Origin: Clostridia bacterium
GTDB taxonomy: Bacteria; Bacillota; Clostridia; TANB77; UBA1234
DNA: 64,000 bases
Assembly: GCA_017539905.1 (NCBI GenBank)
Contig: JAFYBZ010000014.1
Location: 1 to 64,000 of the forward strand
Reading direction: 5' to 3'
Shown: piece after piece, positions 8,435 to 53,547 of the stretch
Layout: each line of letters starts with the position of its first letter
Numbering within the stretch: position 1 is the stretch's first letter
The notes under the pieces: generated by a model
What the model was told of the DNA's origin: nothing
Databases searched by the model: none
What the model saw: only the letters and a program-made list of their open reading frames with translations
Position numbers and translations under genes: made by a program

Positions 8435-10582
8435 TTACTTAATTCCAAATAAATTCTTAAAGAAATCTCCTATCTTTTGGAAGACTTGGACTAATTTGTC
8501 CCAAAAACCTACTTTTTCATGCTCAGGCTCTAAATCAGCTGTATCCTTGAAATTGAACTCTTTTATAGCCTCTGTTTGAACATAGATTTGGACTCTTTCC
8601 ACATTTTCATTTTTCTCAGATGCAAATGAAACCGGATCTGCATTAGGGTCCATATTGAATATATTAGTTTCATTTTCAATATCATCTGATTCTTCTTTAA
8701 TCGTATTATAAATCTTATTTTTTGCATTCTTTAATGGGATACTTTGATTAGTTGCTCCCTTTAATGTTGTCATTAATCCTTTTGTACTATCTAACGTAGC
8801 CTTCGTACTAGTATGCATATCATTTGAAATTGTATTCAAATCATTTTGAGCAAGTGTTAGCAAGTCTTGTGTAATAGAATATATTTTTTTCAAATTCTTT
8901 TCTAATACTTGTATGTTGTTTAGCAATATAGATAGGTTATCTAATGCTTCATTTAGCTCCATAGTGTCAGTACTTAATTTATCATCTAATTGTTTTGTTA
9001 CAATATCAATCATAGAATTAATAGTCTTAATTGTATTGTTGGCATTTTTAATTGTATCAGGTAAGTTCTTAGAATAGTCTTCATACTTGTCAGCAACTTC
9101 GTATAAATCTATTAAATCACCTTGTAAATCTTTAAGACTTTTTGAAAGAGATGAAGTATTTTTGTTGGTATCACCCATCAAATCTTCAGCCTTCTTCATT
9201 TCATTTGATACTTTTGTTAAATTGCTTCCAATATCCTTTGCAATTCCACCTACTTCCATAGCAAGCGATGGATCTACAGCAGCTATCTCTCCAGCAACTT
9301 CTCCAAGTTCTTGAGCATCACTAGCTATATCTGTTAAGCCATTTTTTACAGCCTTTAAATCGATATCAGAAACAGAGTCAACATTTCCTAAAAGCTTATT
9401 TAATCCACCAATACTATTCTTTGTAGATGCTATAACATTCTTTAATGTCTTTAAATCCTTGTTTACTCCTTCAGAACGTTTTTGAATTCTATCTAAGTCT
9501 TTTTCATTTTGCTCTAAATTATTTGAAAGACTTTTCAACTCTTTGTTCAAATTGTTTAAAGTTGTTTTAGTTTCATTTACTCTAGTTTTTAAATAAGCAA
9601 TTTCATTAATTATTGTTGTCACATTATTATCTATGTTTGTAAAATCTCCACTTATACTTTCAAGTGTTTCACTTATTCCAGCAATACTTTGGCTTCTAGT
9701 ATCTTTTCCATTGTTTATCAAATCAAGTGAATCTTCAAATCCATTAAGACCAGAAATAACTTCATCTATATTCTTTCCAGAATCTGATAAGCTATTTAAT
9801 ATAACATCAAAGCTACTATTTAATTCTTGAAAAGCATCTTTAATTTTCTTTCTATCGTCAACTAAATCTTGAATCACTTCTTGAATATCTCCAACTAATG
9901 GAACCATACCAATTGTTAGCCCATCCATATAGAAGTCATCAGTCCCAAGTTCAATTGATACTGTTTTTTCTTGTCCAGGCAAAATCATAAACGTCAAAGT
10001 TTTAGTATTACCGACTGTAGACTCAATAGCCTCATCTGATTCAACACTTATGTACTCTGTCATATCAAAATTACTTTGAATTTCCATCATATAATTATTC
10101 TTATAGTATTCAGGTGCACCTTCATTAGGTATCACATGAATTTCAACCTTTACTAATCCCTTTTGATGAATCAAATCTTGTGCGAGTGTTTCTTTTCCAT
10201 TAAGATAATACTTTATTTCAAAACTCCATGGTGCCTTTTTTGCATATTCTATTGAAGAAGACCCAATATATGAAAATGACTTATCGCCTTTATCTACTTT
10301 AAACAAGATACTATCACCTGAAATTATCGGTGTATTGTTTCCAGTAAGGATTTGATATTTATCATAGACACCATAATCTTTTACTTCATCAACATTTGAT
10401 ATATCAAAGTTATTATAAATATTTACCTTTGTTGGATTGCCATAAACATCACTATTTATATATACAGATTCTTTTTTATTAAGTATTACTTTATCATCTG
10501 AAGCAAAAGTGGCAGAAGGTAAATTTGGCAACAATAAAGTAATAGCTAATACACCAGATACAATTCTCTTACTTGTTTTCAT
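8435..10582 (-). CDS. Secreted coiled-coil protein paired with MMPL exporter
   Basis: A 715-residue protein with a signal peptide (SGVLAITLLLPNLPSATFA). It has a beta-rich first third, then a very long helical coiled-coil stretch from about residue 230 to 600 rich in Leu, Asn, Asp and Lys. The end has an amphipathic FFKNLFGIK tail but no membrane anchor. The start chosen lies 9 nt after AAGGAG and overlaps the MMPL stop by 14 bases. The architecture recalls extracytoplasmic coiled-coil proteins accompanying RND/MMPL transporters (YhgE/Pip-like regions), so a periplasm-like scaffold or adaptor role is an inference. Confidence 0.7.
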   Translation of the reverse strand: MKTSKRIVSGVLAITLLLPNLPSATFASDDKVILNKKESVYINSDVYGNPTKVNIYNNFDISNVDEVKDYGVYDKYQILTGNNTPIISGDSILFKVDKGDKSFSYIGSSSIEYAKKAPWSFEIKYYLNGKETLAQDLIHQKGLVKVEIHVIPNEGAPEYYKNNYMMEIQSNFDMTEYISVESDEAIESTVGNTKTLTFMILPGQEKTVSIELGTDDFYMDGLTIGMVPLVGDIQEVIQDLVDDRKKIKDAFQELNSSFDVILNSLSDSGKNIDEVISGLNGFEDSLDLINNGKDTRSQSIAGISETLESISGDFTNIDNNVTTIINEIAYLKTRVNETKTTLNNLNKELKSLSNNLEQNEKDLDRIQKRSEGVNKDLKTLKNVIASTKNSIGGLNKLLGNVDSVSDIDLKAVKNGLTDIASDAQELGEVAGEIAAVDPSLAMEVGGIAKDIGSNLTKVSNEMKKAEDLMGDTNKNTSSLSKSLKDLQGDLIDLYEVADKYEDYSKNLPDTIKNANNTIKTINSMIDIVTKQLDDKLSTDTMELNEALDNLSILLNNIQVLEKNLKKIYSITQDLLTLAQNDLNTISNDMHTSTKATLDSTKGLMTTLKGATNQSIPLKNAKNKIYNTIKEESDDIENETNIFNMDPNADPVSFASEKNENVERVQIYVQTEAIKEFNFKDTADLEPEHEKVGFWDKLVQVFQKIGDFFKNLFGIK

Positions 10583-44822: not shown

Positions 44823-44906
44823 TTTTTGAGATGGATTTTGGGGACACTTACTTTTTTCCAAGAAAAGTTGGAAAAAAGTAAGTGTCCCCAAAATCCATCT
44901 CAAAAA
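44823..44906. repeat. 39-bp perfect palindrome, GTAAGTGTCCC family, copy 3
   Basis: Positions 44823-44861 pair without a mismatch with 44868-44906 around a 6-nt GAAAAG loop. Each arm contains GGGGACACTTAC (or its complement) and an outer GAGATGG/CCATCTC. It lies between the divergent rpoB and 44986 promoters. Perfection over 39 bp indicates recent arrival or active maintenance. Confidence 0.92.
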
Positions 44907-46515: not shown

Positions 46516-46544
46516 TGTAAAATTATGCTCTTTTATGCTATAAT
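46516..46544 (+). promoter_or_regulatory. promoter of the gene at 46653 (extended -10)
   Basis: A perfect TATAAT (46539-46544) with TG one base upstream; the -35 at 17 nt is a poor TGTAAA. The spacer begins ATTATG, as do the spacers of the promoters before 50954 and 52480. Confidence 0.7.
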
Positions 46545-46550
46545 AATGGT

Positions 46551-46652
46551 ATATCATACCCTTATTGTGGGATTCATTTTTTTGCATCCCACGCTAGTGG
46601 GAACGCATAAATTCTCACAATGAGGAACAAAAAAATACTATTATGAACAAAA
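46551..46652 (+). promoter_or_regulatory. structured 5' leader of the gene at 46653
   Basis: A 13-bp helix (46560-46572 with 46613-46625, two G-U pairs) encloses a hairpin TCCCAC-GCTA-GTGGGA (46587-46602). That hairpin is extended by TGC/GCA after a small internal loop. The C-A-C-G-Y-T-A-G-T-G apical hairpin recurs in the leader of the gene at 50954. A 27-nt single-stranded stretch then leads to the GGAAGG ribosome binding site. Confidence 0.65.
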
Positions 46653-47339
46653 GTGAAAGGAAGGTATCTAAAAATGAAGAGGTTTGTATTCATCATCACT
46701 GCTATCGTTCTCGTTGTTATGTCCGCCATCGCTTTTGCTGACGAGGAATTCCTCGTACCGAAATACAATGGCAAGTTCGTTGGAATTACCATCAACCAGT
46801 ATGGAAACCCAACCAATGGTAAAGGCATCGTATACAAGAAAGACATTAACCGGAAGGTAAAAAAGGCCATCAATAACGCTGTGATTAGTCAGTCAAAGTC
46901 CTCTGAGGACAATGTTGAGTTCGCAGCCGAATTAATGACAAAGCAGAAGTTCACAAACATCCAGTTTTTAACCAGCACTTTTTCTACCTTGGAGGAAGCC
47001 TTCTATGCTTCTATGCTCTCTTCTCAGCCCGGCTACTATGGTCTTATGATTTTTGACCAGAAAGCCAGAAAAGAAGTCTCGCTTGATGTTGTTTTCGTCC
47101 TGCCTAACGGCAAGCATTCTCTCTACATGGCAATTGGCCATTGTGGAGATACATACGGGCTTGTCCGTACTTTGGATGAAAATCAGCTGAAATCAGCTTT
47201 TGCAAGTGGCAAAAAGTCAGCGCAAGCGCGTGCTGAACGTGAAGCCGCTGAAGAAGCTGCAGCTACACAGCCGCCTTATGAGCCGACAGTTGAGGAAGTC
47301 ACTGCGGCCGGTGGCATTATTGTTACATCAGCGTGGTAA
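46653..47339 (+). CDS. Secreted protein of unknown function, solitary GC-richer gene
   Basis: A 228-residue protein with a classical signal peptide (MKRFVFIITAIVLVVMSAIAFA, cleavage before DEE). The mature part has a mixed alpha/beta domain (about 23-180) with the segment STFSTLEEAFYASMLSS and a single Cys in IGHCGDTYG. An Ala/Glu-rich helix and a Pro/Thr end follow. I recognise no family. GGAAGG precedes the ATG. It lies on the plus strand between the FtsH-like gene and a convergent SLH protein gene, with its own promoter and terminator. Its signal peptide start MKRF is shared with the gene at 50954. Confidence 0.82.
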   Translation: MKGRYLKMKRFVFIITAIVLVVMSAIAFADEEFLVPKYNGKFVGITINQYGNPTNGKGIVYKKDINRKVKKAINNAVISQSKSSEDNVEFAAELMTKQKFTNIQFLTSTFSTLEEAFYASMLSSQPGYYGLMIFDQKARKEVSLDVVFVLPNGKHSLYMAIGHCGDTYGLVRTLDENQLKSAFASGKKSAQARAEREAAEEAAATQPPYEPTVEEVTAAGGIIVTSAW

Positions 47340-47430: not shown

Positions 47431-50409
47431 TTATTTTTCTTCTTTCTCTTTTCCATCTTCAGTTATGCTGTATGTATGTGAAGGTCTTGTAGCTTCAACG
47501 ATATCAGCGAATAACTTGTGGTTTCTAGATAGATCTGGGAATTTAGTTGTAGTAGATTTTGTTACTTTTGCAGGAGCTCTTAATAAGTATAGGTTGCAAA
47601 GTTGTGCAACTTCAGCTCTTGTGATTTCTTCTGAAAGTCTTAAGTTTGTCTTCTTTTCAGATACTGGAGCCATATTTAATCTGCAAAGTAATGTCGCATA
47701 TTCAGCTGTCCATGCAGCATCATAAACTTCTTTATCTTCTAAATAATAAATTCTTGATTTATCTTTATAGATCTTAATTAAAGAATCTTCATCTTTAACT
47801 TCAAATCCGTCACCATATTCTTCTTCAACTTGACGAGCAATGATTGAAACGAATTCTCCTCTTGTCATCTTCTTGTTTGGTCTATATGTACCATCTGGAT
47901 AACCAGAGATAATTCCAGCTGCTGTAGCAGCTTTGATAGCACGTCTAGCTGATAAATATGTTTCATCTAGGTCTGGATAATTATATAAGTTTGTATCATA
48001 TGATGTGTTGATTCCAAATATTCTTGTAAGAACTAAAGCACCTTCTGCTCTTGAGATTGAATCATCAGGACGGAAGTTACCTGTATCTCTATCACCGAAC
48101 ATATATGGATCGTGTTCATCACCGATTTCTACGTCAAAATCTTTAACAATTATATTTACAACACCTGATTTATCTTTTACAGAACCATCAAGTGCAATCT
48201 TAGCCATTGGTGTAATTTGTTTATACTTTGTGCTCTTGTTTCCAAGTGAAGTATAAGTAACTACAACAACTTTTGTACCTGCTTCGTCTTTCTTTAATCC
48301 ATTAGCAAATGTCCATGTAAATGTTCCTTTGCTTGAATTATATGATGCACCATCTCTTTGATTAACTTTATATGATAAAGGTAATTCAAGAGTTAATGTA
48401 ACTTTCTTATTAGTATCTTTGCTTCCATTCTTGTAATCTACATAGTAAACTACTTTTTCATTTAAAGCATAGATATTCTTATTTCCTCTATCTTCTGGAT
48501 TATCATATGGTTCACTACGAAGTGATACTGCTAATTTATTTAATTCATCATTTTCTTTCATCCAAGGTTCAACGATTAATTCACCAGTTGTTTCTTCTTC
48601 TTCTCCATCGTCTACTCTTGTGATTTTATATGTGTTTGTATTTGTCTTTGTACCATCTTTTAAGATACCATAAACTCTAATTGTAACAACATCGTCTACA
48701 GCAAGTTTTAGATATACATTGTGACCTGTTGGGTCAGCAGATTTTTCTGCTCCACCATCAACAGTATACATTAATTCGATAAAGCTTGATGCTGGAGAAC
48801 CTGCTAATGTAACAGTAACTTCTGCATCTGTTATCTTTGTTGTAGAACCATTTGATAATGTCTTGCTTCCAATTTTAGCAACGATAGATCCTTCTACAAT
48901 TGGAGCTCCTTTGTGGTATCCACAAACTCTACAAACATCATCTTCATCAAAATCGTGTGGCTCTTTGCCATAAATGTGACCACAGTTGTCACACTCATAC
49001 CAGTGATCATCTTCATCAAATACGATGCTATATTTATGTCCTAAAGCTGGAATACTCTCTTCTTGAGTAGCACCACATCTTGAACATTTTCTAACAATCT
49101 TACCTGGTTTTTCACAAGTTGGTTCAACTCTTGAATACTCTTGGTAATCATGTCCTAAAGGTTCACCAGTAATAACAACTTCTTTACCACATCTTGTACA
49201 TTTCTTAACAGTTCTACCTGGTTCTGTACATGTAGCTGTTGTTTCAGTTGTCTTGTAGTCATGTCCTAATGCAGGGATAGTAGTTGTCTTTGTATCTCCG
49301 CATCTTGTACATTTTTCAACTTTTGATCCTGACTTTTCACAAGTAGCAGGTGTCTCTGATGAAACTTTATAGTTGTGTCCTAATGCTGGGATAGAAGTTG
49401 TCTTTGTATCGCCACATCTTGAACACTTCTCAACTTTTGATCCTGCTTTTGTACATGTAGCAGATGTTGTTGTTGTCTTGTAATCATGTCCTAATGCTGG
49501 AATTGATGTTGTCTTTGTATCTCCGCATCTTGAACATTTTTCAACTTTTAATCCTGCTTTTGTACATGTAGCAGATGTTGTAGTTGTTTTGTAATCATGT
49601 CCTAATGCTGGGATTGATTCTGTCTTTTTGTCTCCGCATCTAGAACATGTGCTTGTTTTAACACCTTTTGAAGTACATGTTGCAGCTGTTGTAACAACAT
49701 AGCTACCATAGTTGTGACCTAATGCTGGTGTTGTAGATGATTGTTGTAATCCACATCTTGAACATGTAGTAACTGTCTTACCGCCAGCTGTACATGTTGC
49801 ATCAACTTTAGATGTAACAACAAAGTTATGTCCTAATGCACTACCTGTAGTAGTGGTTTGAGTATCTCCACATCTTGAGCATCTCTTTGTAACTTTTGCA
49901 GGACTTGTACATGTAGCAGCAGTAGTTGTGCTAACATAATCGTGTCCTAATGCAGGTGTTGTAGAAGATTGTGTTTGACCACATCTTGTACAAGTACTTG
50001 TTGTCTTACCACCAGCTGTACATGTTGCAGCTTGTGTAGATGTAACTTGGAAATTGTGTCCTAATGCACTTCCTAATGTAGCACCACATGATGTACAAGT
50101 CTTTGGTTTTGTACATGTAGCTGCTGTGTAAGTGTGAGTATGAACTGGTGTAGGTGTTGGCTCTGGTGTAGGTGTTGTTCCACCACCACCTGGTTGAGTC
50201 TTTCCACATCTTGTACATTTACCACCAGAATAATTGTGGCCTAATGCACTACCTAATGTTGCACCACACTTTGTACATGTCTTTGGTGTAGTACATGTAG
50301 CTGCTTTGTAAGTGTGAGTAATACAACCAGCATATGTAACTGCGCTAATTGCAAAAACAGCAACTAAACAAAGTGCTAAAACTAGAAGTAATTTGTTAAA
50401 GTTTTTCAT
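47431..50409 (-). CDS. SLH-domain surface protein with tandem cysteine-pair repeats
   Basis: A 992-residue exported protein (signal peptide LLLVLALCLVAVFAISAVTYA). Residues about 28-505 are tandem units of roughly 30-37 residues with consensus ALGHDYKTTTTSATCTKAG then KVEKCSRCGDTKTT. Each has one Cys after Thr and a C-x-x-C-G pair; eleven LGH motifs are visible. Next come beta domains (LELPLSYKVNQRDG) shared with the proteins at 53711 and 55901. Three SLH domains (from about residue 795: FRPDDSISRAEGALVLTRI) bind secondary cell-wall polymer. The repeats may bind metal or form disulfides. Confidence 0.88.
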   Translation of the reverse strand: MKNFNKLLLVLALCLVAVFAISAVTYAGCITHTYKAATCTTPKTCTKCGATLGSALGHNYSGGKCTRCGKTQPGGGGTTPTPEPTPTPVHTHTYTAATCTKPKTCTSCGATLGSALGHNFQVTSTQAATCTAGGKTTSTCTRCGQTQSSTTPALGHDYVSTTTAATCTSPAKVTKRCSRCGDTQTTTTGSALGHNFVVTSKVDATCTAGGKTVTTCSRCGLQQSSTTPALGHNYGSYVVTTAATCTSKGVKTSTCSRCGDKKTESIPALGHDYKTTTTSATCTKAGLKVEKCSRCGDTKTTSIPALGHDYKTTTTSATCTKAGSKVEKCSRCGDTKTTSIPALGHNYKVSSETPATCEKSGSKVEKCTRCGDTKTTTIPALGHDYKTTETTATCTEPGRTVKKCTRCGKEVVITGEPLGHDYQEYSRVEPTCEKPGKIVRKCSRCGATQEESIPALGHKYSIVFDEDDHWYECDNCGHIYGKEPHDFDEDDVCRVCGYHKGAPIVEGSIVAKIGSKTLSNGSTTKITDAEVTVTLAGSPASSFIELMYTVDGGAEKSADPTGHNVYLKLAVDDVVTIRVYGILKDGTKTNTNTYKITRVDDGEEEETTGELIVEPWMKENDELNKLAVSLRSEPYDNPEDRGNKNIYALNEKVVYYVDYKNGSKDTNKKVTLTLELPLSYKVNQRDGASYNSSKGTFTWTFANGLKKDEAGTKVVVVTYTSLGNKSTKYKQITPMAKIALDGSVKDKSGVVNIIVKDFDVEIGDEHDPYMFGDRDTGNFRPDDSISRAEGALVLTRIFGINTSYDTNLYNYPDLDETYLSARRAIKAATAAGIISGYPDGTYRPNKKMTRGEFVSIIARQVEEEYGDGFEVKDEDSLIKIYKDKSRIYYLEDKEVYDAAWTAEYATLLCRLNMAPVSEKKTNLRLSEEITRAEVAQLCNLYLLRAPAKVTKSTTTKFPDLSRNHKLFADIVEATRPSHTYSITEDGKEKEEK

Positions 50410-50700
50410 TTTTATCCTCCCTTAATTTTGTCCTACAAATTAAATTGAAAAATCCAATTAATAGAACAATAAAAATAAACTAGATTATATTTATTGCCTA
50501 AGATGCAAAAAAGCTACGGAAGGTACATCTTTGGATGCCTTCAATAGCTTATCTTAAGTAAAAATTATTAATCTTTTCTTAACGCCAGGTTATTATATCA
50601 CGCATTATGTAAAAAATAAAGATATTTAGTGAAAAAAGTGTGATTTTTTTTAAGATTTTTTTCTATAATTTTTAAAAATTTTCTTTGCTACGGAAAGCCT
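50410..50700 (-). promoter_or_regulatory. promoter and attenuator-like leader of the SLH gene at 47431
   Basis: On the minus strand TATAAT (50597-50592) gives a start near 50585 and a leader of about 175 nt. Starting about 35 nt in is a strong hairpin: AAGCTA/TAGCTT, GAAGG/CCTTC and CATC/GATG stacked over 50511-50550, followed at once by T6. This has the form of an intrinsic terminator inside the leader. The sequence CCGTAGC of its 3' side recurs after another hairpin at 50688-50713. Confidence 0.6.
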
Positions 50701-50729: not shown

Positions 50730-50758
50730 TTGAGAATTATGTTAAATTATGGTATAAT
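50730..50758 (+). promoter_or_regulatory. promoter of the gene at 50954 (TTGAGA-17-TATAAT)
   Basis: TTGAGA (50730-50735) and TATAAT (50753-50758) are 17 nt apart, with TGG before the -10 (extended -10). The leader is about 190 nt. Confidence 0.82.
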
Positions 50759-50780
50759 AATATTACTCTATAATCTATCT

Positions 50781-50874
50781 AAATGGGTCTACAATTGTGA
50801 ATCCACGTATAGTGGCGATATAGCTTTCGAGCTTATCAAACCACGTTAGTGGGTTAACAATTGTAGGCCCATTT
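50781..50874 (+). ncRNA. cloverleaf (four-way junction) RNA in the leader of 50954
   Basis: An 18-bp closing helix (50781-50798 with 50857-50874, one G-U) encloses three hairpins. They are CCAC-GTATA-GTGG (50803-50815), GATA/TATC plus AGCT-TTCG-AGCT with a UUCG tetraloop (50817-50837), and CCAC-GTTA-GTGG (50841-50852). Only a few unpaired bases remain at the junction. I match it to no known riboswitch or leader class. Calling it a cis-regulatory RNA is inference from its position. Confidence 0.75.
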
Positions 50875-50889
50875 GGGTGTTATTGAGTA

Positions 50890-50953
50890 CCGATGATTAG
50901 GTTTCCAAAAATAGGTCTGACCGCCAAAAAAGGTCATCATCGGAAAGCGTCTT
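50890..50953 (+). promoter_or_regulatory. second folded segment of the 50954 leader
   Basis: CCGATGAT (50890-50897) pairs perfectly with ATCATCGG (about 50935-50942), enclosing a GACC/GGTC hairpin. Then GCGTC-TTTT-GACGC (50947-50960) lies immediately before the AGGAGG ribosome binding site. The last hairpin is placed to affect ribosome access. Confidence 0.6.
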
Positions 50954-50970
50954 TTGACGCAGGAGGTTAT

Positions 50971-52126
50971 TATGAAACGGTTTACTTGTGGTATCATCAT
51001 GATGGTTCTGGTCCTTTCTGTTGTCTTCTCCGCCTTTGCTGCTGCCGACGAGACGGTTGAGCTTATCGAGGCCAATGGCCACGAGATTTGCATTTTTTTA
51101 AACAGAGCAGATCGGAAGTCTGCCTGTGAAAGCAAGAAAACCACCTACGTGTCAAAAGACATGGGAAAAGGTATTCTGCGGAATGTCGAACGTTACAAGG
51201 GTGATCCCTATGCCGTCATTTCCAGCTACACCACCACTACTCGCCCCGTTTACATTGAGTATCGCGCTGATGATACTCTTCTTGAGAATGTGGCTGAAGG
51301 TTTTGTGATGGTACGTCGCGGGCTTGACTACAAGGGCAAGCGCATCGATAATATCGATGAGGCCTACTATGTGTTCCAGGCCAAACTGGACAAAGAAGGC
51401 CGTAAATATGATATCGTCGATTTCGTGTTCGTGATTGATGGGGAAACCCAGTCTATCACCCACATCGAAAAAGACGGCCAGGTAAATTATTACCTGGTTG
51501 ATGGCGACGCTCGTGTAACGACGACTCGGAAAGCTTCTAAGAAGCCCGTTGTCGAAACTGAAGAAGATGAACCTGAAAAGCAGCCCGAAGAGGAAACTCC
51601 TGAGCAGGAGCCCGAGCAGGAGCCCGAACAGGAACCCGAGCAGGAGCCCGAACAGGAGCCCGAACAGGAACCTGAACAGGAACCCGAGCAGGAGCCTGAA
51701 CAGGAGCCTGAACAGGAACCCGAGCAGGAGCCCGAACAGGAACCCGAACAGGAACCCGAGCAGGAGCCCGAACAGGAGCCCGAACAGGAACCCGAACAGG
51801 AGCCCGAACAGGAACCCGAGCAGGAGCCCGAACAGGAGCCTGAACAGGAACCCGAACAGGAACCCGAGCAGGAGCCCGAACAGGAGCCCGAACAGGAGCC
51901 TGAACAGGAACCCGAGCAGGAGCCTGAACAGGAACCCGAACAGGAGCCCGAACAGGAGCCCGAACAGGAGCCTGAACAGGAACCCGAGCAGGAACCCGAG
52001 CAGGAACCCGAAGAGAAGCCCGCCCCCGAAGAAGATGAGATTGTTCTTGTCCCCCGCGTTGAGGTCGACGAAAACGAAGATCAGGCTTCTGGTGGAAAGC
52101 TTCCCGCTGGTTTTCCCTTCAACTAA
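50971..52126 (+). CDS. Secreted protein with about 34 EQEP tetrapeptide repeats
   Basis: A secreted protein of about 384-390 residues; the ATG 8 nt or less after AGGAGG at 50961-50966 opens MKRFTCGIIMMVLVLSVVFS (cleavage after FAA). A globular domain of about 170 residues follows (FVMVRRGLDYKGKRIDNIDEAYYVF), with two Cys. Then come about 34 near-perfect Glu-Gln-Glu-Pro repeats and a tail with EEDEIVLVPRVEVDENED. The tail motif recurs three times in the gene at 52480. The repeat probably forms a stiff, highly acidic stalk. I recognise no family. Solitary plus-strand gene between two minus-strand SLH genes. Confidence 0.8.
51603..52010 (+). repeat. 12-bp coding tandem repeat (EQEP)
   Basis: Units of the form GA[GA]CC[CT]GA[GA]CA[GA] repeat without interruption about 34 times. 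Differences between units are almost all synonymous third-position changes, so the peptide is conserved more strictly than the DNA. It is a coding repeat, not CRISPR: no spacers. Confidence 0.93.
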
Positions 52127-52281: not shown

Positions 52282-52310
52282 TTGAAAATTATGTCAATAT
52301 GCATTATAAT
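52282..52310 (+). promoter_or_regulatory. promoter of the gene at 52480 (TTGAAA-17-TATAAT)
   Basis: TTGAAA (52282-52287) and TATAAT (52305-52310) are 17 nt apart. A near-copy of the -35 and following bases, ATTGAAAATTATGT, lies about 30 bp upstream. The rest of the gap back to the terminator at 52146-52180 is AT-rich with no gene. Confidence 0.82.
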
Positions 52311-52317
52311 ATTTATT

Positions 52318-52479
52318 GTATCATAGGTCTTGTGGGGGGCCAAGATGCATGCTTTGACAATTTCGTCATTGCATACTGTTTGACGGCTCCCGCTGAGGGG
52401 GCATTTTTCATGCCCCTAGGGGCAAAAAATTTTAAACCCCTGAAACAAGGGGAATACTAAAAAAGGAAGGAATTTTAAA
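52318..52479 (+). promoter_or_regulatory. leader with competing G/C hairpins upstream of 52480
   Basis: Hairpins in order: TCTTG/CAAGA (52328-52345); ATGC-TT-TGAC/GTCA-TT-GCAT (52349-52374); GCTCCC-GCTGA-GGGGGC (52386-52402); GGGGCAT/ATGCCCC (52398-52416); CCCCT/AGGGG (52437-52452). The third and fourth share 52398-52402 and cannot both form, and GGGGCA at 52419-52424 offers a further partner. Mutually exclusive folds just before the ribosome binding site (GGAAGG) suggest a switch. Confidence 0.6.
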
Positions 52480-53547
52480 ATGTCTATCAAAAAGCGGTTA
52501 TTCATCATCGCGTTGGCTGCTATTCTTCTGGTAAGTTCTTCTGCTATGGCTGATGCTCTCATTGCTGCCCGCAAGTGGCGGTTAACAATGGTGAAAGTTG
52601 ACTTTGTCAACAACCAGTTCTCATCTGAGAATGGTGCCATTGTGAAAGAGAACACCATAAAGACGCCCTACAAACTGGACAATCCGCACCCCGCCTATGA
52701 CAAGGCAGTGATGCTCCCACTTGATCCAACGATGCTGAATTCTGTCAGCATCGTTGAGCGCCAGGCTGGTGATTATCCGAGTGAATTCCAGACTGCCGAA
52801 GAGGCGCTGGAATCAACATTTGGTTACGCTGATGCAGCTGGACGGCTGCTGCCTGAACTGGATGGTCTCACCCCGTCCGAGGCGTATGCCCAGGGTGCGA
52901 GATTTACATTCCACAAGCTGTGGTATAAAAACGCCGCTAAGGTATGCAAGGTGACCGACAAGGTCAAGGCATATGGCGGTGCTAAGTACCGCGTAGCGTA
53001 TGTGGAAGAGGTTATCCAGGTTACGTCCGAGGATGACCAAACCGATTTCATCACTATTCGCCATTATGGCCTACTCGAAGGCTGGGGCGAAAAGAAGGAA
53101 TCAAAGGTCACTCCGAAGCCGAGTGGAGATCCTACACCGACGCCCAAGCCTGAAGATCCCACCCCGACGCCGGAAGATCCTACTCCGACGCCCAAGCCTG
53201 AGGATCCCACCCCGACGCCGGAAGATCCTACTCCGACGCCCAAGCCTGAAGATCCCACCCCGACGCCCAAGCCTCATCCTGAGGAGGACGACATAATCCT
53301 CCCGCCTAAGGTAACGGAGACTCCCACCAAGGCGCCGGATGAGACAAAGCCTGATCCGCACGAAGATGATATAGTGCTTCCTCCAAAAGCGAATGGATCT
53401 GTCCCCACAACAGATGCCAGCGCTTCTACTACGACCACCACGGTCACCGAGACCAAGGTCGAAGTAACGGCTGGAGGAAATGATTCGGATTCTGGTAAGC
53501 CCAACAACCAGGAAGATGAAATAACTCTTCCGGTTCGTAACCAGTAA
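52480..53547 (+). CDS. Secreted protein with PTP/EDP stalk and three EDDI-LP motifs
   Basis: A 355-residue protein with a signal peptide (LFIIALAAILLVSSSAMA). A globular domain follows (about 25-205; SEFQTAEEALESTFGYADAA and FITIRHYGLLEGWG). Next is a proline-rich stalk of DPTPTPKPE and DPTPTPE units (about 217-265), and then a tail containing EEDDIILPPKV, HEDDIVLPPKA and, at the very end, QEDEITLPVRNQ. The same motif ends the EQEP protein. GGAAGG precedes the ATG. I recognise no family. It is plus-strand, G+C-rich in codon use, and flanked by its own promoter and terminator. Confidence 0.82.
   Translation: MSIKKRLFIIALAAILLVSSSAMADALIAARKWRLTMVKVDFVNNQFSSENGAIVKENTIKTPYKLDNPHPAYDKAVMLPLDPTMLNSVSIVERQAGDYPSEFQTAEEALESTFGYADAAGRLLPELDGLTPSEAYAQGARFTFHKLWYKNAAKVCKVTDKVKAYGGAKYRVAYVEEVIQVTSEDDQTDFITIRHYGLLEGWGEKKESKVTPKPSGDPTPTPKPEDPTPTPEDPTPTPKPEDPTPTPEDPTPTPKPEDPTPTPKPHPEEDDIILPPKVTETPTKAPDETKPDPHEDDIVLPPKANGSVPTTDASASTTTTTVTETKVEVTAGGNDSDSGKPNNQEDEITLPVRNQ
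53133..53276 (+). repeat. coding proline-rich tandem repeat (DPTPTPKPE)
   Basis: A unit of about 48 bp encoding alternating DPTPTPKPE and DPTPTPE is repeated about three times with very few base changes, which suggests recent duplication or slippage. Confidence 0.88.

Follow-up and report, generated by a model that had tools for sequence, protein, structure and literature searches.

What kind of element is the almost fully paired stretch in front of the EQEP gene, and does it act as RNA or as DNA? To answer this, we analysed the window (the whole 64,000-nucleotide stretch of DNA studied here, with a G+C content of 33%), which is part of a 296,582-base contig in a 1.7 Mb genome of 42 contigs. 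An earlier note had placed at 50781-50874 a cloverleaf RNA closed by an 18-bp helix. The element lies between an S-layer-homology gene (47431-50409, minus strand) and the orphan EQEP gene (plus strand, ATG at 50972). For the ~190-residue domain of EQEP, no Pfam family scored above the cut-off; a search of 385 genomes of the order gave two weak fragments only and no convincing relative of the protein, and none was found in genome contigs or viral contigs. The computed promoter of EQEP has 11 of 12 matches and an extended −10 (Table 1). From this promoter alone, transcription of the gene is predicted to start at ~50764-50766, so that the element would indeed be, as the note had it, a highly structured part of the 5′ leader of the EQEP gene.

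Table 1. Coordinates of the features of the EQEP locus and of two further leaders in the window
Feature	Position	Strand	Remarks
Promoter	50730-50758	+	TTGAGA, 17 nt spacer, TG before TATAAT; −10 at 50753-50758
Lower stem, 5′ strand	50764-50780	+	Begins at predicted transcription start
18-bp helix, 5′ strand	50781-50798	+	With 50777-50780, 22 uninterrupted pairs
Inner imperfect stem, 5′ strand	50800-50825	+	Predicted fold
UUCG terminal loop	50826-50829	+	Predicted fold
Inner stem, 3′ strand	50830-50855	+	Contains CCACGTTAGTGG at 50841-50852
18-bp helix, 3′ strand	50857-50874	+	Predicted fold
Lower stem, 3′ strand, GGGTGTTATTGAGTA	50875-50889	+	Predicted fold
Second, weaker leader domain, closed by CCGATGAT/ATCATCGG	50890-50943	+	Directly abuts hairpin
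Small hairpin GCGTC-TTTT-GACGC	50947-50960	+	Just 5′ of Shine-Dalgarno site
Shine-Dalgarno sequence AGGAGG	50961-50966	+	Sequence; accessibility computed
EQEP gene	50972-52126	+	Signal-peptide-like start, ~190-aa orphan domain, EPEQ-repeat tail
Structured leader with −10 box, orphan secreted-protein gene at 46671	46539-46640	+	Contains CCCACGCTAGTGGG
Structured leader with −10 box, orphan secreted-protein gene at 52480	52305-52479	+	z about −2.6 to −2.9

Folding calculations confirmed the inverted repeat, whose stability lies far outside what chance would give. Positions 50781-50798 pair with 50857-50874 in the 18-bp helix with one G-U that had been described, and the folding energy of 50781-50874 was −48.5 kcal/mol compared with −18.2±2.9 kcal/mol for shuffled sequences (z about −10), a value reached by none of 200 shuffles, as expected from the note's judgement that such pairing is unlikely to arise by chance. 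The enclosed 58 nt consist of CCAC-GTATA-GTGG, AGCT-TTCG-AGCT and CCAC-GTTA-GTGG and are non-random by themselves (matched by 2 of 1000 shuffles), showing that the element is more than one helix. These self-complementary blocks, read previously as three hairpins, are present in the sequence; in the predicted fold, however, one half of the inner region pairs with the other, and the result is one long imperfect hairpin with a UUCG loop. A forced cloverleaf reached only −41.1 kcal/mol, 7.4 kcal/mol less stable than the long hairpin, and the two CCAC/GTGG hairpins had a predicted pair probability of ~7e-6, which argues against the cloverleaf and equally against the tRNA-like or four-way junction that had been proposed. 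Some caution is called for here, as palindromes resemble cloverleaves by eye because any block that is self-complementary may pair either within itself or with the opposite arm.

The span 50781-50874 holds for the core but is too narrow, since the predicted helix runs over 50764-50889. In this lower stem, TACTC-ATAAT-ATCT (in 50764-50780) is matched by GGGT-GTTAT-GAGTA (in 50875-50889), so that the whole hairpin of 126 nt comprises 53 pairs and includes an uninterrupted helix of 22 contiguous pairs (50777-50798 with 50857-50878). The core was extended equally well by only 8 of 500 shuffled flanks and by 1 of 500 flanks taken from neighbouring intergenic DNA. The first five bases from the predicted start were paired with a probability of 0.82-1.0. 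As the promoter ends at 50758, the start is predicted at 50764-50766, and the base of the helix thus coincides with the predicted start of transcription; it is mainly this coincidence that argues for an RNA role. The fold is also strand-biased (−62.7 kcal/mol for the transcribed strand compared with −44.3 kcal/mol for the other), and the hairpin contains five G-U pairs and no clear A-C mismatch, with a one-sided probability of only ~0.03. The strand bias lends weak support to an RNA role, the argument being weakened by a giant palindrome elsewhere on the contig (C38:270320-270571) that shows a similar bias without an obvious leader position.

Among 87 promoter-anchored leaders on the contig, the EQEP leader ranked second (z = −9.9); a REP-like palindrome came first, and a SAM-riboswitch leader confirmed by Rfam came fifth (z = −4.3). 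The part of the EQEP leader beyond the hairpin (50891-50971) had only modestly more structure than expected by chance (equalled by 40 of 1000 shuffles). No terminator was found on the plus strand from 50764 to 50972 and no CCTCC-type anti-Shine-Dalgarno sequence in the leader, and the predicted accessibility of the Shine-Dalgarno site was equal with and without the hairpin. Computed in this way, the leader shows neither attenuator nor Shine-Dalgarno-sequestering parts and thus no visible expression platform of a classical riboswitch, which speaks against the ligand-binding RNA suggested earlier.

We suggest, with a confidence that is about even, that the element is a 5′-terminal mRNA-stabilising hairpin governing decay or processing of the EQEP mRNA, possibly after trimming by RNase III. 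The mRNA would begin at ~50764, and its first 126 nt would form one imperfect hairpin, leaving no 5′ tail unpaired. The sealed 5′ end may block 5′-end-dependent decay (pyrophosphohydrolase, RNase J), and/or RNase III may cut within the uninterrupted 22 bp, leaving a trimmed leader that is stable. RNase III calls for roughly two or more helical turns without interruption, a length that the 22 pairs attain, and by inference they would suit cleavage. As in stabilising hairpins, the predicted pairing extends to the very first bases of the mRNA, with the start as predicted from the promoter, and the computed accessibility of the ribosome-binding site is left unaffected. The structured leaders of the neighbouring orphan genes (46671 and 52480) also favour this reading.

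Hairpins at the 5′ end, including the aprE leader stem-loop, stabilise Bacillus mRNAs (review, PMC3997798), and in Staphylococcus aureus cspA a long 5′-terminal hairpin is trimmed by RNase III, resulting in a longer mRNA half-life (PMC3386247). The cspA 5′-UTR, like the EQEP leader, carries its long hairpin at the extreme 5′ end of the transcript and upstream of the Shine-Dalgarno sequence. Whereas the cspA leader measures 113 nt and is conserved within Staphylococcus (PMC3386247), that of EQEP is 208 nt, occurs in one genome only and has no visible sequence relation to it, its cleavage being hypothetical. The Bacillus subtilis aprE leader and Escherichia coli ompA-type stabilisers resemble it in having 5′-terminal pairing followed by a strong Shine-Dalgarno sequence in front of an exported-protein gene (PMC3997798), although the EQEP helix is much longer and its effect on stability hypothetical. 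The EQEP hairpin thus probably belongs to a class already described, in which its size is unusual, and is not a novel cloverleaf that senses a ligand. If this is true, it would be among the larger 5′-terminal hairpins in bacterial leaders, and an orphan, lineage-specific surface-protein gene would bring its own mRNA-level control.

Relatives of the hairpin were sought widely. An Rfam scan at gathering and permissive thresholds gave only chance matches to plant microRNA models, which are long hairpins themselves, and no family at the gathering score, in agreement with the earlier note, which could assign the RNA to no known riboswitch class. At the DNA level, 95 relatives matched only in the AT-rich promoter stretch and in short words attributable to chance, plasmid and phage collections contained no match, and no second copy was found in the own genome, including in a search with 3 mismatches. 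A covariance model built from the single sequence recovered only itself and its own reverse strand in the 385 genomes of the order. No relative of the hairpin turned up in these searches, and the EQEP gene is an orphan; the compensatory substitutions to which the earlier note had tied its fold are thus missing only insofar as the searches gave no homologous leader that could show them.

Several candidates were rejected. The two-arm pattern gave nine matches in the genomes of 84,980 species, mostly in repeated or coding-like DNA, none being a homologous leader; the match in Acetobacterium tundrae (L078) seems to be an intergenic repeat unrelated to the hairpin. In viral contigs, the arm pattern had three matches, all of one same sequence and with no hairpin. 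The RYYYAAC/GTTRRRY core sites of an integron attC site are absent, the hairpin ends being TACTC/GAGTA as read by eye. A link with diversity-generating retroelements was dropped because the CCACGTTAGTGG pairs near a target-gene-like 3′ end in two genomes (G032 and G046) are terminator-like there and unrelated. At two loci (L049 and L050), tandem CCACGTTAGTGG hairpins adjoin the apparent 3′ end of a diversity-generating-retroelement target gene, alongside a small gene resembling the MutS N-domain.

The gene at 46671 also has a structured leader (z = −4.5 for 46550-46670). CCACGYTAGTGG occurs at exactly two sites in the genome, in this leader and in that of EQEP, both on the transcribed strand; it forms an apical local hairpin in the former and part of the 3′ arm in the latter. 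Since the covariance model of the EQEP hairpin does not find the 46671 leader, we take the shared sequence as no more than a hint. Elsewhere on the contig, GC-rich secreted-protein genes have leaders that are short and plain, so structured leaders are no general rule for such genes. It is unlikely, in our estimate, that the leaders of 46671, 50972 and 52480 make up a lineage-specific, fast-evolving family of long 5′-terminal RNA structures, linked to their genes and setting surface-protein output post-transcriptionally. The three orphan GC-rich secreted-protein genes (46671-47339, 50972-52126 and 52480-53547) flank or split the S-layer gene cluster, and the products of the first two have a weakly similar N-terminus (E = 0.004).

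The third-position G+C of the orphan genes is 0.48-0.55, compared with 0.15-0.22 in rpoB, rpoC and the S-layer genes. In a congener (G001), the neighbourhood is kept (rpoC, rpoB, an FtsH-like gene, an S-layer gene and then another S-layer gene), but the syntenic place is without all three orphan genes, and the gap matching the EQEP block is 243 bp with no such palindrome. The hairpin is accordingly part of a block specific to this lineage. On the minus strand, the leader of the S-layer gene 47431-50409 carries a terminator-like hairpin, AGCTATTGAAGGCATCC...GTAGCTTTTTTG, at window positions 50490-50560, ~110 nt before the ATG. A matching AGCTATGGAG...CTGTAGCTTTTTTG lies at the corresponding position in the congener (L111, about 8905-8975), and the hairpin is possibly a conserved attenuator of the S-layer gene.

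Could the leader nevertheless sense a ligand or bind a protein, the cloverleaf being its bound state? The two CCAC/GTGG hairpins are possible as alternatives, CCACGYTAGTGG is common to the EQEP and 46671 leaders only and a local hairpin in the latter, and the second leader domain could act downstream. Multi-branch-aptamer riboswitches are likewise structured 5′ leaders, but the fold predicted here has no junction, the cloverleaf pays the energetic cost given above, and there is no Rfam match, no terminator or anti-Shine-Dalgarno sequence to serve as expression platform and no relative in 385 genomes. Riboswitch aptamers are usually widespread. We therefore regard such a leader as very unlikely. 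About as unlikely is a DNA cruciform or repeat operator, in which nested palindromes (ACAATTGT twice, CCACGTATAGTGG and CCACGTTAGTGG) would bind a regulator just downstream of the promoter. ACAATTGT is indeed a perfect palindrome present in both arms, and the nested palindromes sit directly after the promoter; an operator, however, could do without complementarity over 126 nt, pairing in the inner stem is imperfect, and other promoters were found to carry no matching site.

The main alternative, possible though doubtful, is that the element is a DNA palindrome rather than a selected RNA, that is a decayed MITE/REPIN-like insertion or a template-switching inverted duplication that lies by chance between promoter and gene. 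The contig is rich in REP-like perfect palindromes of the GGGACACTTAC and GGGGACGGTTCT types, the genome has two Y1_Tnp transposase genes (C4:89782 and C38:226188) and, at C38:270320-270571 on the same contig, a second giant imperfect palindrome (250 bp, arms 74% alike), and the EQEP palindrome is itself a 73% whole-length self-match and absent from the congener. REP/REPIN elements with their Y1/RAYT transposases (PMC2817692, PMC3116915) are intergenic palindromes too. They are multi-copy and, in the REP families, strand-symmetric, whereas the EQEP palindrome is strand-asymmetric and single-copy in its own genome, with no copy in 385 relatives, plasmids or phages. Its arms and ends are unlike the REP families of the contig, and no clear target-site duplication was seen. 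Moreover, one end falls on the predicted transcription start, and the congener misses the whole orphan-gene block and not the palindrome alone.

Several other palindromes were observed in this genome. Within the window, 44823-44906 is a perfect palindrome with 39-bp arms and GGGGACACTTACTTTTTTCCAA, among several REP-like elements of which a second type has GGGGACGGTTCT. The palindrome at C38:270320-270571 (L069 6320-6571) is, over ~250 nt, almost wholly one imperfect hairpin and overlaps the 3′ end of a yqeY-like gene. A 105-nt imperfect hairpin with no Rfam match (L069 18788-18893) lies between the end of a tRNA-synthetase-like gene and a dapA-like gene, and has an 82% identical copy elsewhere on the contig, at C38:76214-76296.
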